DNA from: an uncultured Pseudomonadota bacterium | GTDB taxonomy: Bacteria > Pseudomonadota > Gammaproteobacteria > Burkholderiales > Methylophilaceae | Length of the DNA: 51,107 nucleotides | Direction: 5' to 3' | Assembly: GCA_903876765.1 (NCBI GenBank) | Contig: CAIRBH010000040.1 | Coordinates: 1 to 51,107 of the forward strand | Shown here: in pieces, positions 1-32,965 of the stretch | How positions within the stretch are numbered: position 1 is the stretch's first letter | Layout of the letters: the number at the start of each line of letters is the position of its first letter | Notes under the pieces: model-generated | What the model saw: only the letters and a program-made list of their open reading frames with translations | Databases searched by the model: none | What the model was told of the DNA's origin: nothing | Program-made: the position numbers and the translations under genes

Positions 1-2531
1 ATCAAAATCAGGCACAAGTCGCCAGTTTGCAAGCGGCATAGCGCCGTATCTATGGCTAAAAATTCACCTTGAATTTCATCTATCTGGCTGGTGCGCTTGG
101 CGTTGACCAATCCGCGCTGCAATAACTTAAGCACTTCACCATCGGCACGGCCGCGCTGACATTGGTCTTGATACAAAATAATCTCATCAAAAACATCGCC
201 TAAAATCTCTGTCTGGCGGCTGATATCAACATCGCGCCTATCGCCTGCGCCGCTAATTACCACAACGCGCTTTTTGGCTGGCATGGTTTGTACGGCAGCA
301 ACTAGCGCTAACATGGCGTCTGGGTTATGACCATAATCGGCAATCACACTTGCACCGCGATAATCAAAAAAGTTAAAGCGGCCAGGGGCAGTCTGCGCGT
401 CATTGACAAAGCTTGCTAGGCCAGCTCTGATGGTTGGCCAATCTATTTTTAGGGCCCATGCAGCCGCCACAGACGCCATAACATTTTCTACCTGAAAACC
501 TATCGTGCCATTTCTGGTAATGGGGATTTGCGCCAAGGCAATACGTTCTTCGAATTCGGATTGGCCAGCTAGCAATTGCGCGGCTACGATAAAACCGCCC
601 TCGCAATAGACGATGCGCCGACCACGAGCATAATGGGTTGCCATCACTGGGTGATGTGGATCTTGCGTAAAAAACGTCACTGTGCCTGGACAGCTATCAG
701 CCATACTAGCGGTCATGGGGTCAGCCGCATTGAGCACCGCTACGCCATCTGGCGAGACATTTTGCACGATCACCCGCTTCACCACGGCCAAATCTTCTAC
801 TGTAGTAATGTAGCTTAAGCCTAGGTGGTCACCCATGCCGATATTGGTTACCACCGCTACATTGCAGCGGTCGAACGCCAAGCCCTCGCGCAGTACCCCG
901 CCTCGCGCCGTTTCAAACACGGCCGCATCAACCTCAGGATGAAACAGCACATTGCGGGCACTTTTTGGCCCACTGCAATCGCCAGTATCTATGCGCTTGC
1001 CCTGAATATAAACGCCGTCAGAATTGGTCATACCAACCCGCAAACCTTGGCCGCCCATAATATGTGCAATCAAGCGTACGGTGGTGGTTTTACCATTGGT
1101 GCCTGCAACCGCCACCAAGGGAATGCGGCCATTTTCACCTAGGCCAAACATGCTAGCGACTATCGCCTCACCTACTGCACGCGCCTTGCCAAATGAGGGT
1201 TGTAAGTGCATACGCAGCCCTGGTGCGGCATTGACTTCTACCACACCGCCGCCTTGTTCTGTCAGGGGTTTACTTACGGTGTCACACACCACATCTACGC
1301 CACATACGTCTAGGCCTATCATTTGCGCGGCGGCAACGGCTGAGGCAGCTAGCTCAGGATGCACATCATCGGTCACATCGGTAGCGGTGCCGCCTGTGCT
1401 GAGGTTTGCGTTGTTGCGCAAAATCACACGACTACCCTTAGGCGGTATGGATTCTGGGGTAAAGTTTTGGGCGTCTAAACTGGCTAAAGCAATATCATCT
1501 ATGCGAATTTTAGTCAGTGAAGTGGCATGGCCTAGGCCGCGTCTTGGGTCGCTATTTACCTGCTCTACTAAGGCTCTGATGCTATGTATGCCATTGCCTA
1601 TGACCAGCGGTGGCTCGCGCCTTGCGGCTGCCACCAATTGATTACCCACCACCAGCAAGCGAAAGTCACTGCCTGGCAAAAATCTTTCTACTAAAATATT
1701 GTCACTGATGGCGGCAGCGGCCTGATAGGCGGCATGCAATTGCTCGCGGCTGGTGATATTCACGGTAACACCCTTGCCTTGATTACCATCTTTAGGTTTT
1801 AGCACCACCGCACCACCAAGGTCTTGCATGGCCTGCCATGCGTCTTCAGCGCTAGAGACTTCACGGCCATTGGGTACAGAAACCCCTGCCGATTCGAGTA
1901 AACGCTTAGTCAGCTCTTTGTCTTGCGCTATAGATTCGGCAATCGCACTACTGCGGTCGGTCTCTGCCGCTTGTATGCGCCGCTGCCGACTACCCCAGCC
2001 AAATTGCACCAAACTGCCTTCAGTGAGACGTCTATACGGCACACCCCGCGCGGTAGCCGCATCAACAATAGCACCAGTGCTGGGGCCTAAGCGCACATCT
2101 TCATCTAAATCTTTTAGCTGAAATAGGGCTGCGTCTAAATCAAAAAATGTATCGTTTAAAGCCGCTTGACACAAAGTTTCGGCCAACGCTAGTGCTAGCC
2201 GCCCTACCGCTTCTTCGCTATATTCAAACACCACCTGATAAATACTGGTTTCTAAGGTAGCCTCCGTGCGGCTAAATGATACCTGACAGCCTGATTCTGC
2301 CTGCAAGGCAAGCGCCGCCAGCCCTAAAACCTGCGCCATAGAAATACTCTCGCTATGACCGCTCAGTTTTAGCGAGCCTATGGCGGGGAATAGAGCGCGT
2401 AATCTGGCCTCAAAACCACTGATATTGGCGATGCTGTTTTCTTCTTCAGTACAAGTGACTATCGCCTCAATGGAGGTATGACGACTCCATAAATTAGGCC
2501 CGCGTAGTGCACGAACTCGTGATACTTGCAT
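1..2531 (-). CDS. cphA: Cyanophycin synthetase CphA (3' end outside window)
   Basis: ATP-dependent polymerase that adds aspartate and arginine alternately to build cyanophycin, a cytoplasmic nitrogen and carbon reserve. The frame is open from ATG at 2531 to the window edge (843 codons), so only a short C-terminal piece is missing compared with the usual family length. The N-terminus reads MQVSRVRALRGPNLWSRH, typical of CphA. A central ATP-grasp region follows (VVLKPKDGNQGKGV; later VVEVNAAPGLRMHL), then a Mur-ligase-type domain with P-loop GTNGKT at residues 477-482. The start overlaps the stop of the upstream paralogue by one base (TAATG), which suggests translational coupling. The classical P-loop and full-length Mur domain mark this as the main CphA1-type enzyme. 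Confidence 0.95.
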   Translation of the reverse strand, partial: MQVSRVRALRGPNLWSRHTSIEAIVTCTEEENSIANISGFEARLRALFPAIGSLKLSGHSESISMAQVLGLAALALQAESGCQVSFSRTEATLETSIYQVVFEYSEEAVGRLALALAETLCQAALNDTFFDLDAALFQLKDLDEDVRLGPSTGAIVDAATARGVPYRRLTEGSLVQFGWGSRQRRIQAAETDRSSAIAESIAQDKELTKRLLESAGVSVPNGREVSSAEDAWQAMQDLGGAVVLKPKDGNQGKGVTVNITSREQLHAAYQAAAAISDNILVERFLPGSDFRLLVVGNQLVAAARREPPLVIGNGIHSIRALVEQVNSDPRRGLGHATSLTKIRIDDIALASLDAQNFTPESIPPKGSRVILRNNANLSTGGTATDVTDDVHPELAASAVAAAQMIGLDVCGVDVVCDTVSKPLTEQGGGVVEVNAAPGLRMHLQPSFGKARAVGEAIVASMFGLGENGRIPLVAVAGTNGKTTTVRLIAHIMGGQGLRVGMTNSDGVYIQGKRIDTGDCSGPKSARNVLFHPEVDAAVFETARGGVLREGLAFDRCNVAVVTNIGMGDHLGLSYITTVEDLAVVKRVIVQNVSPDGVAVLNAADPMTASMADSCPGTVTFFTQDPHHPVMATHYARGRRIVYCEGGFIVAAQLLAGQSEFEERIALAQIPITRNGTIGFQVENVMASVAAAWALKIDWPTIRAGLASFVNDAQTAPGRFNFFDYRGASVIADYGHNPDAMLALVAAVQTMPAKKRVVVISGAGDRRDVDISRQTEILGDVFDEIILYQDQCQRGRADGEVLKLLQRGLVNAKRTSQIDEIQGEFLAIDTALCRLQTGDLCLIL

Positions 2532-4717
2532 TAAACAATTTTCCTTGTAATATCGAATTCAACATCGGCTGGCATCACTGAAAAAGTCTCAATACCAGCG
2601 CGTATCAGTGCTGGAGAAATGCCTAAGGCCCATGCGGCAGCGATTGCCGCCAGCACATAATCGAGCTTTTCACCATGGCAATCTGCACCCAATAAAGGAA
2701 TAGATGTCAGCTTAGTTAAGACTATTTTTGCACTGCCTGTCACCAAGAGTATGCGGTCATCATGCAATATCACGGCTTGGCCATTAGCTGCTAAGTGCGC
2801 CACTACCATGGGCAAATTGGCCACCCGCGTAAAGAAAATCACCGCCCCATCAGATAATTCGGCCATTTGCGCGACTTGCGGGTCATTGGCATTTAGCACG
2901 GCGGTACCACTAGAGAGCACCACATCGACTTGCGTGCGTAACACGTTATAAACCTGTTCTGGTGTTTCAATATAACTCGCGCCGTAATGCAGCTCAGCTT
3001 GCAGATTAGTCACCAGTCCAACCTGACAACGGTCATAAGCTAGGCCCTCAGTCAAAATGCTGCTCATGCTATTTTCTATCACTGCGGCATCTACCCTACG
3101 GTTGATGAGTAATTTTTGCCCCGCCGCCCATGTGGCGCAATCTTGTTTTTCAATCAAACGTTGATCAAAATACAAGCCGTCACTGCATGCCAACCCTACA
3201 TACTGGCCGCTTAAATGCAGCAAGCGCGCGATAATTTTTGCCACCAAAGTTTTACCACGGCTACCAGCAATACCAATCACCGGAATACGACCACTGTCAT
3301 TTTCTGCAAAAAGGCTATCCACAATAGCGCGGCCCACTGGGCGCGGCTGACCCTCAGCAGGCTTAAGATGCATCAGCAAGCCTGGGCCCGCATTGACCTC
3401 TACGATGGCGCCACGCTGCACATCCAGAGGCTGTGAAATATCCTCAGCCACCATGTCTATGCCAGCAATATCCAGCCCGACTATCTTTGCCGCTAAAACA
3501 GCAGCAGCAGCCACTTCAGGGTGTACTAGGTCGGTGACATCAAGCGCGATATTGCCGTTGCGCTGAATAATCACTGCGGTATTTTTAGGCAAAATTGAAT
3601 CTGCCGTATAGCCCTGCCGCTCAATTTCAAAAACCACAGAGGGGTTTTGCGCGATGGACAGCAAATCCAGCGGGAACTCCTCGGCTTCACCGCGGCGCGG
3701 ATCACTATTAATTTGCAAATCAATTAGCTGCGCAATCGTAGATTGGCCATCACCTAGCACAGAGACCGACTCGCCTCTCGCCGCGGCAGCAAGTCGACCG
3801 CCAATCACCAACAAGCGATGCTCATTACCGCGCACAAAGCGCTCCACAATCACTTCGCTACCCTCAGCATCGGCCAATTTGAATGCCGCTTCAACCTCGG
3901 CGCGCTTCATCAGCTCGGTAGAAACGCCGCGCCCATGATTGCCGTCACTGGGTTTCACCACCACGGGCAAGCCAATGTCTTCAGCGGCTTCCCAAGCGTC
4001 TGCTGGGTTATCGACTATCCTGCCTTCAGGCACAGGCACGCCACAAGTTTGCAATAAGCTTTTGGTTAAATCTTTGTCGCGCGAAATACCTTCAGCAATC
4101 GCACTGGTCTGGTCTGTTTCAGCCGTCCAAACCCTATGCTGACGGGCACCATAACCTAGCTGTACTAAATTGCCATCGGTCAATCGAATAGCAGGAATTT
4201 GTCGCTCAGTGGCCGCATCAACAATACAGGCGGTGCTAGGCCCCAAACACAAAGAATCAACCATATCGCGCAGCTCGGCCAGCGTCGCGGCTACATCAAA
4301 CGGGCGGTCTTCAATAGCCGCCATGACTAAGTCACGGCCAGCAATAAATGCTGCACGACTGACTTCTTCATTACGTGAGCGAACAACCACTTTATATACG
4401 CCTCGCACATTGGTGCTGCGCGCTTTGCCAAAGCCGCCCTGCATACCAGCCATGCTTTGTAATTCTAGCGTGACGTGCTCTAAAATATGCCCAGGCCAAG
4501 TGCCTTCACGTAGGCGCTCTAAAAACCCGCCAGGCTCACCTATGCCACAACGGTGCTCGGCTAATGATGGCATCCAAGCGGTCAAGCGTTCATAAAAACC
4601 AGGGATGGTATTAGACGGAGAATCTTCTAAAGCGCCTATATCTAGCCAAACTTCCAGCACAGGACGATAAGTCCAGATATTAGGGCCACGCAGTGGTAAA
4701 AATTTGAGGAACTCCAT
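2531..4717 (-). CDS. cphA2: Cyanophycin synthetase-like paralogue (CphA2/CphA' type)
   Basis: A 728-residue relative of CphA, clearly shorter than the usual 870-900. It has the N-terminal LRGPNIWTYRPVLEVW motif, an ATP-grasp region (VVVKPSDGNHGRGVS; IVEVNAGPGLLMHL) and a Mur-ligase P-loop changed to GSRGKT (residues 485-490). It ends soon after WALGISPALIRAG, so the terminal Mur-ligase subdomain is absent. In cyanobacteria CphA2 uses the beta-Asp-Arg dipeptide; in several betaproteobacteria a second cphA gene sits directly before cphA. Which activity applies here cannot be read from sequence. I chose ATG 4717 (weak GGA upstream) over an in-frame TTG at 4729, which has no ribosome-binding site. 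The stop overlaps the cphA start. Confidence 0.9.
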   Translation of the reverse strand: MEFLKFLPLRGPNIWTYRPVLEVWLDIGALEDSPSNTIPGFYERLTAWMPSLAEHRCGIGEPGGFLERLREGTWPGHILEHVTLELQSMAGMQGGFGKARSTNVRGVYKVVVRSRNEEVSRAAFIAGRDLVMAAIEDRPFDVAATLAELRDMVDSLCLGPSTACIVDAATERQIPAIRLTDGNLVQLGYGARQHRVWTAETDQTSAIAEGISRDKDLTKSLLQTCGVPVPEGRIVDNPADAWEAAEDIGLPVVVKPSDGNHGRGVSTELMKRAEVEAAFKLADAEGSEVIVERFVRGNEHRLLVIGGRLAAAARGESVSVLGDGQSTIAQLIDLQINSDPRRGEAEEFPLDLLSIAQNPSVVFEIERQGYTADSILPKNTAVIIQRNGNIALDVTDLVHPEVAAAAVLAAKIVGLDIAGIDMVAEDISQPLDVQRGAIVEVNAGPGLLMHLKPAEGQPRPVGRAIVDSLFAENDSGRIPVIGIAGSRGKTLVAKIIARLLHLSGQYVGLACSDGLYFDQRLIEKQDCATWAAGQKLLINRRVDAAVIENSMSSILTEGLAYDRCQVGLVTNLQAELHYGASYIETPEQVYNVLRTQVDVVLSSGTAVLNANDPQVAQMAELSDGAVIFFTRVANLPMVVAHLAANGQAVILHDDRILLVTGSAKIVLTKLTSIPLLGADCHGEKLDYVLAAIAAAWALGISPALIRAGIETFSVMPADVEFDITRKIV

Positions 4718-4762
4718 CAATCTATCCAAATATATTTAAAGTGGGAGGTAATGCTTGTACTG

Positions 4763-23013: not shown

Positions 23014-23331
23014 ATGAAAGCATTATTGTTAGCAATTGCAGCAGCTAGTTCTATGTTAGTTGCCGCTCAAGTCAATGCCGCTGACGCATCCGCCTTAGCG
23101 CAAAAAAGTGGCTGCTTAGCTTGTCACAGTATCGATAAAAAAGTATTAGGCCCAGCATATAAAGATGTTGCCGCAAAATACAAAGGCGATAAAACTGCTG
23201 AAGCTAAATTAGTTGCCAAAGTTAAAGCGGGTGGTAGTGGCGTTTGGGGTCCTATGCCTATGCCACCAAACAGCCCACAAGTTAAAGATGCAGACATTAC
23301 AGCAATCGTACAATGGATTTTGTCACTATAA
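23014..23331 (+). CDS. Class I cytochrome c (c-551/c-552 type)
   Basis: A 105-residue periplasmic electron carrier. A cleavable signal peptide ends at AQVNAA (about residue 23). There is one heme site, CLACH (C34, C37, H38), and a methionine ligand candidate in GPMPMPP (M81 or M83). It is monocistronic, with its own probable promoter, a good ribosome-binding site and a terminator. It shares the stretch GPAY(K/R)DVAAKYK with the mto shuttle cytochrome at 31231, so the two are related but differ in the distal ligand region. It is likely a donor to a terminal oxidase or a peroxidase. Confidence 0.96.
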   Translation: MKALLLAIAAASSMLVAAQVNAADASALAQKSGCLACHSIDKKVLGPAYKDVAAKYKGDKTAEAKLVAKVKAGGSGVWGPMPMPPNSPQVKDADITAIVQWILSL

Positions 23332-24920: not shown

Positions 24921-26225
24921 TTAGCTATTGAACATCGTTGTTAAAACAGCAATCATGTAGCTGTGGTCTAGCACACCAGCGCTTTCTCGCAGACTATGCA
25001 TGGCCCACATCGGTGAACCCACATCCACACTCGCCAGCCCTAAATTAGCCGCCACTAGCGGCCCTATGGTGCTGCCACAGCCTAAGTCGGTGCGGTGTGC
25101 ATATTGCTGGTAAGGCACCTTGGCCTGCTCACACAGTGTCATAAAGCGCGCAGCACTTTCTGCATTGGTGGCATAGCGTTGGTTGGCATTGGTTTTAATC
25201 ACTGGGCCTTTATTTACCAATACATGGTGGCTAGGCTCATAGGCTGAGGAGTGATTGGGGTGGTAGGCGTGCGCCATATCGGCACTAATAAAAAAGCTAT
25301 TCGCCAAGGCACGCAGCCGTGCTTCATCGTCTAACTGTTGACTACTGGCAATGCGATTAATCACATCATTTAAAAAGCTGCCACTCGCCCCTGCCGCGCT
25401 TTCACTACCCACTTCTTCGTGGTCAAAAAAAGCACATACGCAGCTAGCCTCAGAGGTTAGGGTCGCCAGTAAAGCGGTTAAAGCGGCATGGCAAGAGGCT
25501 AAATTATCCAACTGACTATTGGCGATAAACTCTTGATTGGCGCCCCAAAAACTGCCTTTTTGCGTATCAAATACGTTAAGCTCAAAGCTTAAAATGTCTT
25601 TCACATCGGCATGAATCGCTTGTGCAATATGGCCCAAAAATTGTTGCTCGGCCTCAACCCCTGCTTGGGTTTCACCAAAAATCAGCGGCAATTCGGTTTG
25701 TTTATTCAGCAGCAAACCTTTGTCATTCACCTCACGGTTCATGTGAATGGCTAAGTTAGGCAAGCGCATCAGCGCTTCATTAAACTTCACTAAGCGCATT
25801 TCAAAGCCAGCCGCGGTACGCACACTGACGCGGCCTGCTAGGCTCAAATCACGGTCTGTAAAACTGGCTAAAATCGGCCCGCCATACACCTCAACGCCAA
25901 TACGCACTAAGCCATCACCTGCATAAGCGGCATGGGGTTTAAGTCGCAAGCCAGGCGAATCAGTATGCGCCCCCACCATGCGAAAACCCGTTGTAGTGAG
26001 GGCTTGTTTGCCCATGGTAAAGGCAATGATAGAAGCCCCGCCACGCACCACGTAATAGCGCTCCCCTGCTTTGAGTTGCCAAGCTTGGCTTTCCGTTAGC
26101 GGCACAAAGCCCTCTTTCAATAAACGCTGGGCAACGGTATCCACCACATGCCAAGGGCTAGGGCTGGCATCAATAAAATCAAGCAATGCTTGGGCTTGTT
26201 GTTTTGGCTGGGGTTGGCTGTGCAT
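24921..26225 (-). CDS. apeB: M18 family aminopeptidase (aspartyl-preferring)
   Basis: A 434-residue zinc metallopeptidase of family M18, a large cytoplasmic oligomer that removes N-terminal, often acidic, residues. Metal-binding and active-site motifs are present: GAHTDSPGLRLKP, ASFTDRDLSLAGRV, FDHEEVGSESAAGASGSF, DMAHAYHPN and the C-terminal GCGSTIGPL. It stands alone after a 117-bp gap from the permease gene. Breaking down Asp-containing dipeptides is a possible role but is not shown. Confidence 0.95.
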   Translation of the reverse strand: MHSQPQPKQQAQALLDFIDASPSPWHVVDTVAQRLLKEGFVPLTESQAWQLKAGERYYVVRGGASIIAFTMGKQALTTTGFRMVGAHTDSPGLRLKPHAAYAGDGLVRIGVEVYGGPILASFTDRDLSLAGRVSVRTAAGFEMRLVKFNEALMRLPNLAIHMNREVNDKGLLLNKQTELPLIFGETQAGVEAEQQFLGHIAQAIHADVKDILSFELNVFDTQKGSFWGANQEFIANSQLDNLASCHAALTALLATLTSEASCVCAFFDHEEVGSESAAGASGSFLNDVINRIASSQQLDDEARLRALANSFFISADMAHAYHPNHSSAYEPSHHVLVNKGPVIKTNANQRYATNAESAARFMTLCEQAKVPYQQYAHRTDLGCGSTIGPLVAANLGLASVDVGSPMWAMHSLRESAGVLDHSYMIAVLTTMFNS

Positions 26226-26342: not shown

Positions 26343-26367
26343 AAAAGGGAGCTTTTGGCTCCCTTTT
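26343..26367 (-). terminator. Terminator of the mto operon
   Basis: Stem AAAAGGGAGC / GCTCCCTTTT with a five-base loop. On the minus strand it runs into CCCTTTTTG, about 45 bp after the mtoC stop. Confidence 0.85.
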
Positions 26368-26410
26368 ATTAGTACATCTAGCTTAGCGTTCAATGATTAG
26401 CGGCTATCGT

Positions 26411-26983
26411 TTACTCATCTGGGTCTATGTATTCTTTAGGTAACAGATGGGCAATGCCTTTGTGGCAATCAATACAGGTTTTACCTTCCACTTTGGCTTG
26501 TGCATGCATTTTTTGTGCTTTAGGTTTCTGTTTTTTAGCTTCCATTGCATCAAAATTATGGCAGTTTCTGCATTCACGTGAGCCAGAAGCCTTCATGCGC
26601 TTCCACTCTGAAGTCGCCATTTCCATACGATGCGCTTCAAACTTAGCTGGCGTATCCACCCAACCTACAATTTTTTCATAGACTTCTTTGCTAGCACTAA
26701 TCTTACGCATCATTTTATGCGTCCAGTCTTTAGGCACATGGCAATCAGAACAAATCGCGCGTACACCAGTGCGGTTTTTGAAGTGTATGGTTTCTTGGTA
26801 TTCCACATACACGTTATCACGCATTTCATGGCAACCAATACAGAACTCTAACTTATTGGTTTGTTCAAGCGCCGTATTAAAGCCACCCCAGAACAAAATG
26901 CCGGAGACAAAGCCAACCAATAGCAGGCTTAGCAATGAGTACTTAATACTTGGCCGTCTTAATGTTGCCCATAATTTTTTCAT
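26411..26983 (-). CDS. mtoC: Tetraheme NapC/NirT cytochrome c (MtoC/CymA-like)
   Basis: A 190-residue inner-membrane cytochrome that exchanges electrons between the quinone pool and periplasmic carriers. One N-terminal membrane anchor lies at about residues 15-33. The periplasmic part has exactly four CxxCH sites: C48-H52 (CIGCHEM, with M54 as the usual first-heme ligand), C78-, C138- and C170-. It is last in the mtoDABC operon with a GAGGA ribosome-binding site, and its start is about 106 bp from the mtoB stop across a hairpin. In Sideroxydans the equivalent gene, called cymA or mtoC, holds the same place. Confidence 0.95.
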   Translation of the reverse strand: MKKLWATLRRPSIKYSLLSLLLVGFVSGILFWGGFNTALEQTNKLEFCIGCHEMRDNVYVEYQETIHFKNRTGVRAICSDCHVPKDWTHKMMRKISASKEVYEKIVGWVDTPAKFEAHRMEMATSEWKRMKASGSRECRNCHNFDAMEAKKQKPKAQKMHAQAKVEGKTCIDCHKGIAHLLPKEYIDPDE

Positions 26984-27036
26984 GATTTTTCCTCAATTTA
27001 ACAACAAACAATGCATACACACTGTGTAAACTTAAC

Positions 27037-27066
27037 AATAACGAGGCGGTGTTCAGCCTCGTTATT
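27037..27066. terminator. Hairpin in the mtoB-mtoC spacer
   Basis: An 11-bp perfect stem (AATAACGAGGC / GCCTCGTTATT) with an eight-base loop. On the plus strand a T-run follows; on the operon (minus) strand only TTATTGTTAA follows. Note that mtoC lies upstream at lower coordinates than this hairpin in transcription order after mtoB. It is probably a partial attenuator or processing site inside the operon. Confidence 0.6.
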
Positions 27067-27089
27067 TTTTAAAAGCACTTCACCACTTA

Positions 27090-30000
27090 TTAGAAGCTAT
27101 AAATATAAGCAGCACCGACACTATGTACATTATAAGAAGGCGCCTTCTCATTGGTTGGCAAAATACCAGTTGGCGTATTGCCAGCTTGTAATGATTCGTA
27201 GAACCAGTCAGATGAAGTCAAGTGTTGATAGGTATAACCCACACGCACAGTAGAACGTTTATCAACCGCGTATTTCCCATTTAATTTGAGTGTCACAATA
27301 CGAGTATTAACATCAGGCAAGGCTTGCATCGGAATGTATGCCGTTGTCCAAGCGGTCGCTCCACTTGAGCCAGAATTAGTAGTAGTTAAGGGAGAAGTCA
27401 CCGCGATGACACCTGTAAAGTCTTGAGATGTTTTAGCCCAAGTAAAGAGAAGGTCTCCACCTAAATCTAACTTAGGTGTTAACAACCCTTTGGTTAATAA
27501 ATTAAAGCCTAAAGTGTTATTCTGGTCATGAATGCTCGTGCCCCATTGATTACATGGATCAATTTTTGCACTTTGAGCGCGTGCAACTATATCTGCATAG
27601 CAACCACCTATCATTGAATCGGTATTGGTATTCGCTGCAGTTCCTCCAGCGATAGCCGTGCCAGCATTCGTCCCATAGTTATCAAAGGTCATATTCTGAC
27701 GTTGGCTACTGTAGCTATAGTAGGCGCTGGTACTTACCTTGTCATTAAAGGCAAAAGTGCTATCTAAGTTGATTGCATAACTTTTTGAGTCTTGCAATCC
27801 CACTGTGGTCTTTTTAAAGTTATCGAGATTGAAATCAATTCCACCAGTTAGCGTTAGTCTATCTGTTGCCTGCCAATTGGTACTTGCACGGACTTTGTTG
27901 CGATCTCTATCGCCTACATAAGGCATTTGTTGGCCAGGCATTTGCATTAAATTTTGACCGTTAGCATAGTAGGTTGCCGCAGTAATCTGACCACCAGGAC
28001 CCATAAACGTAGTCAAAGCAATCGCTTGATTCGTTGTCAACGTTGGATAGATCGCTTTCCAAGATTTCACAGCCGCATACAACGCATTATTTGGATCTCC
28101 ATCAATAGTTGCTGCAGCAACCCCAGCAGCTATTGGTGCTGCACTACTGCTAAGGCCTGTTGGCCAACCAAGCGATGGCCCATAGGCCGTGATACCTAAA
28201 CTTTTTACGGATTGCAAGAAGCTGTAAAGACTGTACCCACCTGTATTGACAAGGGCTTGATTAGGTACTAAGTTTGCTGTTGGTGTTAATGCTAAGAACG
28301 CATCTGGGTTGTACCCTTGCGCATTTCTAACAGAAAAAGCATAGCCAATTTTAGCCGTTACATTATCAATCATCGTATTACGATATTCTGCACGTACTGT
28401 ATTTTCATTGGTTCTTTCAGCATCTGCACAAGAAACCCATGAATCATTACAGTGGCGATCAATCGTTTCAAAATCATAGCCCACTTTAACGGCGTTGCCT
28501 TGGACAATTAAATAATCGGCATCTAAATTAACGCGGTGCGATGTCTTGCTATACGCGCGATTTTGCCAGATATTGACACCGGTGCTACCGGTATTAATTA
28601 CGTCAGTCAAAGGTATCAAGCCAGCAGTGTGTAGCGCATTATTATAAAGAGCCGCTGCAGTATTTGTAGTAAGCACCGAATTGACGGTATCAATATCCAT
28701 CTGCGCAAAAGTTTTAACAGGGGTTTGATTATTACGGTCATCATACTTGTAGCCCGCTGACACATTAAGATCTTTAATAGGCTTGGCTGTCAGTTTCAGA
28801 TAAGCAGTTTTATTAATCACTTCTCCATGGAGTGAGTTTTCAGGTAAATAACCCGATGCAATTAATGACGTTCTTAAGAACGCATCATTTTGCGTGTTAC
28901 GTCCATATGAAAACTCTCCCACCAGCTTAGTCGAGGGGGTGAAGTTATAGCCCCCGGTGAAACGTGCTTCATGCATCTGGTTGCTTGGTGGCGTAATATC
29001 TGCACCGTTAACAAGACCAAGATCTGGATTTACAAAAGTAACAACTTTATTGTTCTGTGTAAACACTGACCCATAATAAGCCGCTTTGAAGAATGACTGG
29101 TCTCCAGTGAAATTAAGTGCGAGATTAAACTGGTCGTGTGACTGATCCATATCAATGGGAAGTAAGATATCTTTTTCACCATTGGGCACAAATTCTTGTA
29201 ATCGTGTGCCTGTTTTGTCTTCATGCGAGATACTACCTGTAATGTCCCACTGATTTTCTATATTGAAAACAATACCAGCATCATATTTACGACGTTGCGT
29301 ATCAATTTTCACATTGTGGAATAATGCCGTATCAGTTGCGGCAGCATTCAGCATGGTTTGCAAATAGTTGGATCCACTAGCTGATGATGGCAATAGCCGC
29401 TCTACAGGGCCGCATTTAGCATAGGTCAGCGTTCCTGCAACACAAGCTGCTATGGCACTTACACCGCTACTATTGTAGCGCCAGAGCAAATCGTTATTGA
29501 CAAAATTGCTAGAGAGCGCTCGCGTGTTATAGGCATCTGGTGTTGATGATCCACCAACCCAACTAGCTAAAGGAACATTAGCACCACCAGTAATTGGAGT
29601 GACGTTAAGCTGCATTGGTTTGACCCAACCGCTAGGCAACACAAAATTATTGGTGCCATTGGTTATATAAGGTGTTTGGTAATCGCCGTTACCATTTTTT
29701 ACAAACTGATCATAACCAAGATTAATGCGGAACTTGCCCTGGCGACCGAACTCAGCAGACATTTTTCGCGTATCTAAGGCAAGATCACTGGCTTTGAAAC
29801 TCCAGCGCCCGGTCTCACCAGAATCATAGGCAGCACCTCCACGCACATCAATGTTAGCGATGCCATAAGTACTTTTGTCATCTAAGCCGTTGTACTCACC
29901 ATACTTCCAATTTTTGTTGTTGATGTAAGTGCCACCAATTTCAATTTGACTGATGGGTTTAACTAGCTCAGCTGCTGATGCTTCATCAGCCGCCTCACCG

Positions 30001-30095
30001 GCATAAGCTACGGAGACTACCGCCATGCTCAACAGCGCAGCACGAAGGGCGATAATCGATAATTTTAAAGAGAAGCTATCTAAATAGTTGTTCAT
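27090..30095 (-). CDS. mtoB: MtrB/PioB-family outer-membrane porin (MtoB)
   Basis: The beta-barrel that sheathes the decaheme cytochrome and lets it reach across the outer membrane. A signal peptide ends near A32 (SVAYA). The mature protein shows alternating beta strands and ends in an aromatic residue (YIYSF), as expected for an outer-membrane barrel. At 1001 residues it is much longer than Shewanella MtrB (about 700) or, from memory, Sideroxydans MtoB. Much of the excess appears to be long loops, especially about 590-730. Three cysteine pairs occur (218/228, 549/556, 832/848), but there is no N-terminal CxxC as in Shewanella MtrB. It lies 23 bp after mtoA (AGGA ribosome-binding site). Confidence 0.95.
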   Translation of the reverse strand: MNNYLDSFSLKLSIIALRAALLSMAVVSVAYAGEAADEASAAELVKPISQIEIGGTYINNKNWKYGEYNGLDDKSTYGIANIDVRGGAAYDSGETGRWSFKASDLALDTRKMSAEFGRQGKFRINLGYDQFVKNGNGDYQTPYITNGTNNFVLPSGWVKPMQLNVTPITGGANVPLASWVGGSSTPDAYNTRALSSNFVNNDLLWRYNSSGVSAIAACVAGTLTYAKCGPVERLLPSSASGSNYLQTMLNAAATDTALFHNVKIDTQRRKYDAGIVFNIENQWDITGSISHEDKTGTRLQEFVPNGEKDILLPIDMDQSHDQFNLALNFTGDQSFFKAAYYGSVFTQNNKVVTFVNPDLGLVNGADITPPSNQMHEARFTGGYNFTPSTKLVGEFSYGRNTQNDAFLRTSLIASGYLPENSLHGEVINKTAYLKLTAKPIKDLNVSAGYKYDDRNNQTPVKTFAQMDIDTVNSVLTTNTAAALYNNALHTAGLIPLTDVINTGSTGVNIWQNRAYSKTSHRVNLDADYLIVQGNAVKVGYDFETIDRHCNDSWVSCADAERTNENTVRAEYRNTMIDNVTAKIGYAFSVRNAQGYNPDAFLALTPTANLVPNQALVNTGGYSLYSFLQSVKSLGITAYGPSLGWPTGLSSSAAPIAAGVAAATIDGDPNNALYAAVKSWKAIYPTLTTNQAIALTTFMGPGGQITAATYYANGQNLMQMPGQQMPYVGDRDRNKVRASTNWQATDRLTLTGGIDFNLDNFKKTTVGLQDSKSYAINLDSTFAFNDKVSTSAYYSYSSQRQNMTFDNYGTNAGTAIAGGTAANTNTDSMIGGCYADIVARAQSAKIDPCNQWGTSIHDQNNTLGFNLLTKGLLTPKLDLGGDLLFTWAKTSQDFTGVIAVTSPLTTTNSGSSGATAWTTAYIPMQALPDVNTRIVTLKLNGKYAVDKRSTVRVGYTYQHLTSSDWFYESLQAGNTPTGILPTNEKAPSYNVHSVGAAYIYSF

Positions 30096-30118
30096 GATAT
30101 TTTCCTGATCTCTGTTAT

Positions 30119-31168
30119 TTATCTGTTGAACTTAGCGCCAGATGGATGGTTAGATCCATGGACGAGCGCGTGGCAATTTAGACAAGCTCGACCAACACCA
30201 TTGGTGGTTGGGGTCGCGCTGCCAGGAGCCTGATAAGTCACACCGTTGACGATAATGTTGGTTGCATTACCTGATAGCGTCATGTTAGAACCTGAGAACT
30301 TAGCATTCGCGTGTTGGTTGCTGTGACACTCTTGACATAAGAACGGCGGTCTCGCTTTTAACAGTGGCGTAGTGTTTGAGCCATGAGGTGTGTGGCAGTT
30401 GGTACAATCATCAGTCACTGGCTGATGTTCGAATAACAACGGTCCGCGCTTCTCTGCATGGCAGGTATAACACGTTGCATTAACAGAATCCTTGATGAGC
30501 AATTTTGGCCCAGTGGTTCCGTGTGGGTTATGACAGTCAGAACATGACATTTTGCCTGCATCAAGTGGGTGTGTTGAAATACGATGTGTTTCAGCACGTT
30601 GAGTTTTATGGCAATTAAAACAAACCTCTGGCTGAGTTGTTTTAGCCAGTACTTTATCTTGTCTAGCATGCACTTCATGACAGGCCGCACAAACTATATT
30701 ACGGCTTTCATGCTGACTGCCAGTCCAGTGATTGCGTTTACCTGCGGCATTCGCATGGCAAGTTTGGCAAGAAGCATTTTGTTTGCTTGAAGCCGTTCTA
30801 GGGAATGATGAGTTACTACCACTCTTCATACCAAACAACACGTCTGGTGAAGGACGTGTTGCTTTACCGTCGGCATTTTTTACGTGCGCATCACTGTCAC
30901 CATGACAAGATTGACAACTAGGTGTTCGAGAGTCGGCTTTTACACCATGCTTAGTTTGATAAATTGACAATACCGGTTTTACTTCACTCTCATCATGACA
31001 CTTGGTACAAACAGCGTCCTTTTTTAGAGAGTCAGTTACTGCCGATTGCGTGACGGTTCGCACCGAAGACTCACCTAAATCAGGCAGTTCTGCTGCAAAA
31101 ATTCCCGAAGACGTTAGCAGCCCCCCGAACATTAAGCACAGTGCCGCAATTTTTGTTGTCAATTTCAT
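30119..31168 (-). CDS. mtoA: Decaheme c-type cytochrome MtoA (MtrA/DmsE family)
   Basis: The electron wire that sits inside the MtoB porin. The 349-residue protein has a Sec signal peptide (to about SSGIFA) and exactly ten CxxCH sites (CTKCH, CQSCH, CQTCH, CAACH, CFNCH, CSDCH, CYTCH, CTNCH, CQECH, CLNCH). Spacing and length fit MtrA/MtoA/PioA. I chose ATG 31168, which has GAGGGT at the right distance; an upstream in-frame TTG at 31204 has no ribosome-binding site and would spoil the signal peptide. No dmsAB genes are nearby, which argues against a DMSO-respiration role. The mtoB gene follows directly. Confidence 0.97.
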   Translation of the reverse strand: MKLTTKIAALCLMFGGLLTSSGIFAAELPDLGESSVRTVTQSAVTDSLKKDAVCTKCHDESEVKPVLSIYQTKHGVKADSRTPSCQSCHGDSDAHVKNADGKATRPSPDVLFGMKSGSNSSFPRTASSKQNASCQTCHANAAGKRNHWTGSQHESRNIVCAACHEVHARQDKVLAKTTQPEVCFNCHKTQRAETHRISTHPLDAGKMSCSDCHNPHGTTGPKLLIKDSVNATCYTCHAEKRGPLLFEHQPVTDDCTNCHTPHGSNTTPLLKARPPFLCQECHSNQHANAKFSGSNMTLSGNATNIIVNGVTYQAPGSATPTTNGVGRACLNCHALVHGSNHPSGAKFNR

Positions 31169-31230
31169 TTTATTTACCCTCGGTTTAATCTTGAATAAGG
31201 GCAACCAACACTGGCTACCCTAGATTTGCA

Positions 31231-31620
31231 CTAATCAGTTTCTGGCCATTTACCTCCAGGCAATGACAGCACCCACTCAATCAAATTAGTTTGTTGAGCG
31301 ACGTCTTTGACCTTAATGATTTTGTGTTCTTCTTCATGACCATCTGGGAATTTTGCTTTTTCGCCTGAAGTGATGTGGTTAATTAACTTTTTAACCGTTT
31401 CAGCATGATCTTTATCTTTGTACTTGGCTGCTACATCGCGGTAGGCAGGGCCATCTTTATGCTTATCGACTGCGTGGCATTTTAAGCAGCCGTTTTGACG
31501 GGCTAAAGACAATGCAGCGTCGGCATCTACTGCTAAAGCACTACTGGAATATATCAGGCTTAAACCGATTGAAACTGCTAAGACTTTAAACAATTGACTG
31601 ACTTGTAGTTGAATTTTCAT
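31231..31620 (-). CDS. mtoD: Periplasmic monoheme cytochrome c MtoD
   Basis: First gene of the operon; a 129-residue class I cytochrome c thought to shuttle electrons between MtoA and the inner-membrane cytochrome. Signal peptide to about A30 (SSALA). One heme site, CLKCH (C45, C48, H49). No methionine occurs after the initiator, so the usual Met ligand is absent. In its place lies FPDGHEEEH with H95 and H99. The C-terminal helix (NLIEWVLSL) matches the cytochrome c at 23014. The ribosome-binding site AGGAG lies directly against an inverted repeat, with an FNR-type box about 63 bp upstream. Its stop is 62 bp before mtoA. Confidence 0.93.
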   Translation of the reverse strand: MKIQLQVSQLFKVLAVSIGLSLIYSSSALAVDADAALSLARQNGCLKCHAVDKHKDGPAYRDVAAKYKDKDHAETVKKLINHITSGEKAKFPDGHEEEHKIIKVKDVAQQTNLIEWVLSLPGGKWPETD

Positions 31621-31631
31621 CGCTATCTCCT

Positions 31632-31658
31632 ATTGACCATAATAATTTAATGGTCAAT
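31632..31658 (-). promoter_or_regulatory. Perfect 9-9-9 inverted repeat before mtoD
   Basis: ATTGACCAT-N9-ATGGTCAAT ends one base before the mtoD ribosome-binding site. It could be an operator or, if transcribed, a 9-bp RNA hairpin that affects ribosome access. It matches no regulator motif I can name. Confidence 0.75.
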
Positions 31659-31682
31659 TTACTCTTTAAATTTAAATCCAAT

Positions 31683-31696
31683 TTGATTTAAATCAA
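31683..31696 (-). promoter_or_regulatory. FNR/ANR-type box upstream of the mto operon
   Basis: TTGAT-TTAA-ATCAA is a perfect match to the FNR consensus TTGAT-N4-ATCAA. It lies 63-76 bp before the mtoD start. If used as a class II activator site, transcription would start near 31648 with a -10 around 31656-31661 (TAAATT on the minus strand). Confidence 0.75.
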
Positions 31697-32000: not shown

Positions 32001-32059
32001 TATTTAACTGGCTAGGGATTAACTGGCCAGAGATTAATTAACCGGGATTAATTAACCAG
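32001..32059. repeat. Four imperfect ~15-bp repeats at the hemF 3' end
   Basis: Units ATTTAACTGGCTAGG, GATTAACTGGCCAGA, GATTAATTAACCGG and GATTAATTAACCAGG lie end to end. The last one overlaps the final hemF codons and stop, so the array looks like a gene-end sequence copied outwards by slippage. Confidence 0.6.
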
Positions 32060-32965
32060 GTCTAGCCAATTTTTATCTACCAAAAAATCAGTATAAAGTT
32101 TGGCTTCTGCGCTATTGGCTTCTGGCTTCCAGTCGTAGCGCCATTTAACGATAGGCGGCATAGAAAGCAGTATGGATTCGGTACGACCATTTGACTGTAA
32201 ACCAAACAAAGTGCCGCGGTCGTAGACCAAGTTAAATTCTACATAACGCCCCCGTCTATAGGCCTGAAAATCTCGCTCACGCTCACCGTAAGGCGTGTCT
32301 TTACGGCGCTGCACTATAGGCAAATAGGCATTTAAAAAGCTATCGCCAACAGCGCGTTGCATAGCAAAGCTTTTTTCAAAACCCAATTCGTTAAAGTCAT
32401 CAAAAAAGATACCGCCTATGCCACGCGGCTCTTTACGATGTTTTAGGTAAAAATACTCGTCACATTCTTTTTTAAATTTAGGGTAGTAGCTAAGGTTAAA
32501 CGCGTCCAAAGCGGTTTTATTGGTGCGATGAAAATGCTCTGCATCTTCTGCAAACCCATAATAAGGCGTCAGATCCATACCGCCACCAAACCACCAAATA
32601 TCGGCTTGTGTGCTGTTTGGTGACTTAGCCACAAAAAAACGTACATTCATGTGCACGGTAGGAATATAAGGATTACGTGGGTGAAATACCAGCGAAACAC
32701 CCATGGCCTCCCAAGCACGACCAGCGGCTTCGGGATGTGCAGCACTGGCTGATGGGGGCAATTTGCTACCCAGTACGTGTGAAAAGCCCACTCCTGCCCG
32801 CTCAAATACATGGCCTTCTTCTAGCAAGCATGAGGTGCCGCCTCCGCCTTCGGGTCGCTGCCAACTGTCTTGTAAAAAGTTTTTACCATCAACCAGCTCT
32901 AAAGCTTCCACAATCTTAGCTTGTAAGTTTTGCAAATAATTGAGTACGGCTTGGGTATCCATCAT
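32048..32965 (-). CDS. hemF: Oxygen-dependent coproporphyrinogen III oxidase
   Basis: Makes protoporphyrinogen IX in heme synthesis using O2. The 305-residue length is standard. Motifs: [52 protein letters not shown] and [14 protein letters not shown] near the C-terminus. The start overlaps the purD stop (TAATG), so it is translated from the purH-purD-hemF transcript. It lies directly upstream of the heme-rich mto operon on the same strand, though separated by 427 bp. Confidence 0.98.

Follow-up and report, generated by a model that had tools for sequence, protein, structure and literature searches.

An apparently mosaic mtoDABC operon in a Methylophilaceae genome, with a conduit core of another lineage between periplasmic parts of the family type

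The stretch of DNA analysed here (the window, 51,107 nt) is one whole contig, C40, of a Methylophilaceae genome of 1.91 Mb in 53 contigs (90.3% complete, 0.5% contaminated), and it holds an mtoDABC operon, four genes for a predicted porin-cytochrome conduit of extracellular electron transfer. Comparison of its sequence with other loci indicates that the operon is a mosaic, in which MtoD, MtoC and approximately residues 1–92 of the decaheme cytochrome MtoA (hemes 1 and 2) go with those of other Methylophilaceae, and residues 93–349 of MtoA together with the outer-membrane barrel MtoB would belong to another conduit lineage. This mosaic structure is the new finding. The mere presence of a conduit is modest news, since MtrB/PioB and RuBisCO have already been published for lake Methylotenera (PMC11978286; the literature is cited here from extracts of the papers named).

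Against genome G146 the window's MtoD is 83% and its MtoC 82% identical, MtoA 59% and MtoB 37%, and the MtoA and MtoB of G146, G026 and G088 are more distant from the window than they are from one another and from rows of Gallionellaceae and Comamonadaceae (L-numbers denote compared loci and G-numbers genomes; the window's genome is G000, and its sister G544 is locus L054). The MtoB tree of 82 loci has a split with support of 100 (starred) into lineage I, with 46 loci including the Sideroxydans rows, and lineage II, with 36 loci comprising the window, L054, Acidobacteria, Burkholderiales from peat and some Methylococcaceae. The MtoD tree places the window in a five-row clade (100, starred) with L054, G146, G088 and L055, and in the MtoC tree its clade (98, starred) has four rows, the others being L054, G146 and G026. 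Each locus took its lineage label from the MtoB tree, MtoA was cut after residue 92 into an N-part (1–92) and a C-part (93–349), and the label changes on each tree were compared with shuffles of the labels on that tree. The C-part shows 1 change on 82 rows (shuffle mean 27.0, least 20), the N-part 17 on 82 (mean 26.9, least 19) and MtoC 10 on 38 (mean 10.5, least 7); MtoC is therefore without label signal, and the N-part carries part of it, as does MtoD. The nearest labelled neighbour bears the same label for all 82 of the 82 C-part rows, for 62 of 82 in the N-part, 49 of 62 in MtoD and 26 of 38 in MtoC. In approximately unbiased (AU) tests on 40 of the 90 rows, MtoA 93–349 rejected the grouping of the six Methylophilaceae-type rows in a single clade (p 3.2e-5, or 0.003 without G088), which MtoA 1–92 did not reject (0.64), while MtoA 1–92 rejected a single lineage-II clade (2.6e-5), which the C-part tree shows at 100 (starred). 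These six rows include L055, whose family no record names. Before the counts, L057, L067 and L133 were removed as duplicates of L043, L044 and L051, and 8 of the 90 MtoA rows, being unlabelled by lineage, were excluded; MtoB rows of less than 600 residues were left out of the trees, as were MtoC rows of less than 80 (less than 150 in the window-wise label count). The trees hold neither the S. lithotrophicus ES-1 sequence nor DmsE, DmsF or PioAB references.

Sharp junctions are seen in two contigs of one Comamonadaceae metagenome-assembled genome (CANFVA01), L058 and L106, which carry different versions of the 3′ part of mtoA and of mtoB between nearly identical flanks. They differ at 6 of 487 positions from inside mtoD to codon 88 of mtoA; divergence begins right after the heme-2 motif (mtoA codons 83–87) and runs through all of mtoB; and from 13 nt before the mtoC ATG they again differ at 6 of 309 positions, DNA identity thus passing from ~98% to ~60% at one place and then back. 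Identity between L056 and L123 drops at about the same mtoA codons. In the window heme 2 of MtoA lies at residues 85–89, and the putative exchange cassette listed in Table 1 has junctions carried over from the trees and from L058/L106, which are not exact for the window itself. A second, younger replacement tract is suggested by synonymous divergence (dS) between the window and L054. In the flanks dS is 0.92 for purH, 0.86 for purD, 0.96 for hemF and 0.69 for the M18 aminopeptidase gene; within the operon it is 0.82 for mtoD, 0.56 for MtoA 1–92, 0.45 for MtoA 93–285, 0.40 for MtoB 1–92 and 0.30 for mtoC, with 1.6 for MtoA 286–330, 0.93 for the last 19 MtoA residues and 1.5 to saturation for MtoB 93–1001. 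The jump inside mtoB therefore argues for replacement, beyond fast protein change alone.

It is quite unlikely that no recombination took place and that a fast-evolving MtoB and MtoA C-part have distorted the trees through long branches. No protein of the operon diverges more than MtoB, and most pairs compared show variation in the MtoA linker joining hemes 9 and 10; however, selection on the protein alone would not raise dS from 0.40 to at least 1.5 inside mtoB, nor does fast evolution fit an identity that switches at one place and back in L058/L106, and the MtoA C-part tree is better supported than the N-part tree (28 of 87 inner branches starred against 12 of 85). Given the dS values, fast evolution as the sole cause of the MtoB divergence is not favoured. 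Our reading is one of recurrent exchange of a cassette for the surface part of the conduit, as the sequence comparisons suggest. In MtrA heme 1 points toward the periplasm and heme 10 toward the surface (PMC12203936). By analogy with the exchange of phage tail fibres, homologous recombination with one end at the conserved codons for heme 2 in mtoA and the other at the beginning of mtoC would repeatedly replace MtoA hemes 3–10 and MtoB across bacterial families, so that the cell changes its extracellular partner or escapes phage with its periplasmic wiring fixed, an account to which we incline with some reserve. The periplasm-facing parts (MtoD, MtoC and MtoA hemes 1–2) would then stay with the Methylophilaceae version of the operon, and MtoA hemes 3–10 and MtoB would move as one unit, here and in other families, altering the contact with the outside (mineral, Fe(II), humics or a barrel-binding phage) without rewiring of the periplasm.

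Several observations count against so simple a picture. The partial MtoC of G088 lies outside the Methylophilaceae MtoC clade, placed elsewhere without support, and some label signal remains in the MtoD tree (12 changes on 62 rows; shuffle mean 18.2, least 12). Along MtoA the label count in 40-residue windows falls gradually, from 18 to 1, so that junctions need not share one place and there may be no single junction, and the count of 1 in all seven MtoB windows arises partly by construction, the label having been taken from MtoB. In a tree of 38 of the 90 rows and four others, rooted on the MtrA of S. baltica, lineage I forms one 20-row group (93/90, not starred) with the Sideroxydans row L070 and the window lies outside it, but lineage II is a grade and not a clade; the root is unsure because it depends on a single long outgroup. 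The N-part alignment is short (91 columns), the AU groups were named after the trees had been seen, and most trees were quick ones with support from the Shimodaira–Hasegawa-like approximate likelihood ratio test (SH-aLRT) only. L058 and L106 may be two strains or two loci. Finally, nearly all mosaic loci come from metagenomes, in which misassembly of strains can mimic exchange and conserved heme codons are likely misjoin points, so that the mosaic contigs might be chimeras of assembly or binning. We regard this as unlikely, since the window and L054 hold the operon in the same Methylophilaceae gene order in two assemblies, since the older mosaic seen against G146 is not obtainable by misjoining near-identical strains, and since nearest neighbours with different labels are found in several families.

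L059 has a lineage-II conduit, yet its MtoD falls among the lineage-I carriers of Methylococcales (nearest L105, 83), and three further lineage-II loci (L068, L071 and L083) lie in the wider MtoD group around it (94, not starred); L059, set against L105 and other Methylococcales loci, is a possible third case of exchange.

In both the window and G544 the operon sits between hemF and the M18 aminopeptidase gene, with flanking proteins 83–97% identical. The survey found 24 other genomes of the same genus and obtained the locus for 19 of them: the hemF and M18 matches are at most 96 nt apart in 13, they are spaced by 296 and 489 nt without mto in two, three have no M18 match in the stretch, and one, G544, is occupied by mto. 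The site is empty in G547 and also in G146, which however carries mtoDABC on another contig. The operon thus sits at this place, where most congeners have nothing, as a single block, in a contig of ordinary Methylophilaceae sequence. Of 150 genomes sampled from the family, 4 have MtoB relatives, the window's own included, with G544, outside the sample, as a fifth; of 399 sampled from the order, 45 have MtoA relatives (E ≤1e-20), again counting its own. Taken as a whole, and on sequence evidence, the operon is probably best explained as an inserted, laterally acquired porin-cytochrome electron conduit of mosaic structure.

The four genes stand in the order mtoD, mtoA, mtoB, mtoC at the coordinates at which a sequence-only reading had placed them, and its observation of one, ten, no and four CXXCH motifs on one strand holds, as does that of a terminator at the operon end, where a terminator-like hairpin lies past mtoC (over the 6.2 kb, 11 sites of this kind compare with 5.8 in shuffles). 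The same order on one strand occurs in 34 of the 90 loci, the window included, the remainder lacking D or C, having another order or being interrupted by contig ends. For mtoA the list of open reading frames (ORFs) gives a TTG start at 31204; the ATG used here (349 residues, MKLTT...) is preferred because it fits a signal peptide better. MtoA scores 272.1 bits against TIGR03508 (cut-off 192.2), MtoB 395.1 bits against PF11854 and 386.6 against TIGR03509 (cut-off 240.05), MtoC 255.9 bits against PF03264 and MtoD 27.9 bits against PF00034 (cut-off 21.3); MtoC stays under the cut-off of the NapC/NirT subfamily TIGR02161 (302.7 against 310.6). MtoD, whose sole Met is supplied by the start codon, has a His-containing distal loop and no candidate for a Met ligand, and the DGxEExH motif is kept in 60 of 67 MtoD rows. 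Its best sequence match in the PDB is 4xxl_A (E 4.4e-35), labelled ‘Cytochrome c class I’, which we take to be the MtoD of ES-1 and which differs very little from its counterpart in the Sideroxydans locus L070. The best PDB sequence matches of MtoA and MtoB are 6r2q_A and 6r2q_B, of the MtrCAB complex 6R2Q (PMC12203936). A decaheme MtrA-family cytochrome thus adjoins an MtrB/PioB-family barrel of 26 strands (our count on a model), the combination that characterizes a porin-cytochrome conduit. Four loci (L045, L048, L069 and L092) have a tandem pair of mtoD-like genes upstream of mtoA, the second with another loop (e.g. DGHEETHK), and two loci from isolates, judging by their titles, Duganella alba FT9W (L098) and Herbaspirillum sp. 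ST 5-3 (L129), have two close MtoA/MtoB-type sets each.

It is most improbable that the operon is a DmsEF-type module for respiration of dimethyl sulfoxide, although MtoA passes the cut-off of TIGR03508, a model described as ‘DmsE family’; MtrA and MtoA presumably fall under it as well. No dmsA or dmsB lies beside the operon among the window ORFs searched or listed, the sole DmsA/YnfE-like protein found in the genome is on another contig and reaches 289 where the cut-off is 778, and both MtoD and MtoC belong to the Mto type. The sequence-only reading had likened the operon to the Fe(II)-oxidation conduit of Sideroxydans, and this stands for its outer frame: the MtoDABC order agrees, and MtoD, MtoC and the MtoA N-part follow the Mto operon of this family, whereas the core, MtoA 93–349 and MtoB, falls outside the clade of Sideroxydans rows (ES-1 itself not being in the trees). 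On sequence grounds the window operon thus appears Mto-like in its periplasmic parts and not in its core. It shares its gene types with the Mto locus of ES-1 (mtoD-mtoA-mtoB-cymA/imoA, then pmcA), and its order with the Sideroxydans loci L070 and L092; its MtoD has the distal loop of 4xxl_A and its MtoC belongs to the NapC/NirT family. Unlike ES-1, it has no monoheme cytochrome gene directly past mtoC, and it differs from Sideroxydans Mto in an MtoB of 1001 residues with longer loops and an extra Cys pair, and in an FNR-type box. Compared with MtrCAB of Shewanella, MtoA resembles MtrA and MtoB resembles MtrB (best fold 6r2q_B), but MtoD and MtoC are present, loops L3 and L9 of MtoB far exceed the gaps in the MtrB alignment, and an MtrC is missing from the window, where no other ORF has three or more CXXCH motifs (the rest of the genome was not checked).

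Against published systems, the operon, its insertion site and its mosaic are not described in the extracts on lake-water Methylotenera (PMC11978286). Trout Bog Methylotenera with Cyc2 and a putative novel porin-cytochrome complex (PCC) is likewise a methylotroph with predicted extracellular electron transfer, but its PCC genes had no significant homology to known PCCs (PMC6344600), whereas the conduit of the window is a homologue of MtrAB/MtoAB. Horizontal transfer and modular change of electron-transfer clusters have been described for mtrCAB, with a relatively conserved MtrAB core and varying accessories (PMC8805035); the window shows the opposite, the accessories staying and the core being exchanged from inside mtoA. 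A literature search found no conduit-core exchange from inside mtoA, nor do the passages of PMC8805035 on recombination and modularity contain one. MtoA and MtoB are used as genetic markers for iron oxidation (PMC12442390, PMC10734462). Should the core be exchanged from a junction within mtoA, a tree built on full-length MtoA would blend two histories, and hemes 3–10 and the barrel should be used to infer function, separately from the periplasmic partners. The exchanged part would be the surface part, and the mosaics would be a natural guide for building hybrid conduits in Shewanella.

An AlphaFold2 model of MtoB forms a barrel (mean predicted local distance difference test score, pLDDT, 75.9) in which the long loops are poorly predicted; the count of 26 strands merges one broken strand and leaves out short ones. 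Its best fold match in the PDB is 6r2q_B (E 8.8e-44; TM-score 0.89 on the target and 0.58 on the query). Loop sides were assigned by alternation, short turns being taken as periplasmic and long loops as outer. In a structure-based alignment of 42 MtoB rows the outer loops of lineage II (30 rows) have longer medians than those of lineage I (12 rows) at L3 (84 against 57.5), L7 (43 against 23), L9 (87 against 30), L11 (40 against 19) and L12 (8 against 3), and shorter ones at L4 (8 against 18), L5 (24 against 35) and L8 (11 against 28.5). The L11 cysteines 832 and 848 are found in 23 and 29 of the 30 lineage-II rows respectively and in none of the 12 lineage-I rows.

From what is known of these families, electron exchange with the quinone pool would fall to MtoC and shuttling in the periplasm to MtoD and other carriers, and the MtoA wire within the MtoB barrel would carry the electrons across the outer membrane. 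MtoD of ES-1 is bis-His-ligated with a potential of +155 mV and has been proposed to deliver electrons to a high-potential acceptor, whereas ImoA is served by PmcA (PMC13390432). The net flow is, in our view, most likely an uptake of electrons from Fe(II) or reduced humics to oxidases and the quinone pool, which would supplement one-carbon (C1) metabolism in a RuBisCO-bearing cell; uptake at low oxygen is favoured, at about an even call, because MtoD is of the ES-1 type, the window has no MtrC, and a cbb3 oxidase and RuBisCO are present. That the conduit instead discharges electrons from methanol or formate to Fe(III) or humics at low oxygen is possible but rather doubtful. Outward flow of this kind has been hypothesized in print for both Methylotenera and Methylobacter (PMC6344600), and Shewanella MtrCAB can run both ways (PMC8805035); a pyrroloquinoline quinone (PQQ) dehydrogenase, hexulose-6-phosphate synthase and formate dehydrogenase are present, an FNR-type box lies upstream of mtoD, and lineage-II conduits are closer to MtrA in the rooted tree. 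Against it stand the lack of an MtrC-like multiheme ORF in the window (the rest of the genome was not checked) and the likeness of MtoD to the +155 mV carrier of ES-1 thought to feed a high-potential acceptor (PMC13390432). To flow in both directions, or some other arrangement, we give only a small share.

Upstream of mtoD lies a perfect match to TTGAT-N4-ATCAA, which we take to be the FNR/Anr consensus. The window holds no other perfect match (expected number 0.09; among 100 shuffles, 8 had any), and L054 has the box with one mismatch at the same distance from mtoD; in G146 it is perfect at a different distance from the ORF start used, and in G088 it has two mismatches. The operon may thus be switched on at low oxygen through this predicted FNR-type site. 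Less favourable to that view, the box is not general, since 5 of 60 mtoD upstream regions have it perfect and 10 of 60 with at most one mismatch, as against 14 of 300 random stretches, and it is missing from the mtoD upstream regions of the Sideroxydans loci L070 and L092. An inverted repeat, TTGACCAT-N9-ATGGTCAA, lies at 31633–31657 between the box and the mtoD start.

The guess made from sequence alone of a Methylophilaceae methylotroph outside the Gallionellaceae proved right at family level, and G026 and G088 are of the same family; the genus is inferred to be Methylotenera. The genome has a PQQ-type methanol/ethanol dehydrogenase and hexulose-6-phosphate synthase, both over cut-off, in agreement with methylotrophy, as well as formate dehydrogenase and aa3- and cbb3-type oxidases. 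The RuBisCO for which that reading had proposed a check is present at 889 bits against NF010002 (cut-off 489), presumably the form II model. Copies 98–99% identical in G544 and G547 indicate that it is on no stray contig, and RuBisCO occurs in 29 of 150 family genomes, this one included. RuBisCO as a linked partner of mto is rejected, because it is present in the mto-free sister G547; it was also not found in the mto carriers G146 and G088, and the two traits are therefore not tied. For the host, the finding places a full Mto-type operon in a methylotroph with RuBisCO and phosphoribulokinase. In lake-water Methylotenera, RuBisCO and phosphoribulokinase are reported from one lake clade (LW2) and an MtrB/PioB-type porin from some LW1-2 genomes (PMC11978286), and RuBisCO has been reported in Methylophilaceae (PMC13059738). 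A PF07396 net over the window's genome, in which Cyc2 proper was not searched for, gave one match, a porin with a cysteine-free ORF, and so yielded no Cyc2.

Table 1. Features of the operon, its surroundings and other contigs of the genome; positions are in the window unless a contig or protein is named
Feature	Position	Strand	Remarks
mtoD	31231..31620	-	periplasmic monoheme cytochrome c; 1 CXXCH; loop FPDGHEEEH common with 4xxl_A
mtoA	30119..31168	-	decaheme cytochrome, 349 residues; 10 CXXCH; apparent mosaic
mtoB	27090..30095	-	outer-membrane barrel, 1001 residues; no CXXCH
mtoC (cymA/imoA-like)	26411..26983	-	NapC/NirT-family tetraheme cytochrome; 4 CXXCH; inner-membrane quinone link by family
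Putative exchange cassette	26984..30901	-	mtoA from just past heme 2, all of mtoB, up to the mtoB-mtoC gap
Putative second, younger replacement tract versus L054	27090..29819	-	MtoB residues 93–1001; dS 1.5 to saturated
Raised-dS stretch versus L054	30179–30313	-	MtoA residues 286–330
MtoB long loops, taken as extracellular	L3, residues 135–264; L9, 594–729; L11, with Cys 832/848		
FNR/Anr-type box, TTGATTTAAATCAA	31683..31696		TTGAT-N4-ATCAA, perfect match upstream of mtoD; near edge 63 nt from A of ATG
Intrinsic-terminator-like hairpin	26343..26367	-	past mtoC
11-pair stem-loop	27037..27066	-	mtoB-mtoC gap, where the 3′ junction of the cassette would fall
hemF (oxygen-dependent coproporphyrinogen oxidase)	32048..32965	-	upstream flank of insertion
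M18 aminopeptidase	24921..26225	-	downstream flank of insertion
RuBisCO, CbbQ-family ATPase, VWA protein, divergent phosphoribulokinase	L143:3817–9505 (G000 contig C11)		phosphoribulokinase 474 bits (cut-off 362)
DmsA/YnfE-like molybdoprotein, 708 residues	G000:C15:21265–22491 (L202)		below every listed NCBIfam cut-off; between dihydroorotate dehydrogenase and JmjC-domain genes

The insertion is flanked at one end by hemF, purD, purH and dusB and at the other by genes for the M18 aminopeptidase and an amino-acid permease; an Rfam search of the window gave no match. The 105-residue product of the gene at 23014–23331 is a monoheme cytochrome c whose loop is rich in Met; L054 has it at the corresponding position with 97% identity, and it might serve either as a general carrier or together with the conduit. 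As a candidate for PmcA it has the Met-rich loop but lies beyond two other genes from the operon and on the opposite strand. At positions 4–4729 two adjacent ORFs with N-terminal domains of cyanophycin synthase, one of them also with ATP-grasp and Mur-ligase domains, stand beside an ABC transporter and possibly form a cyanophycin-type storage system.

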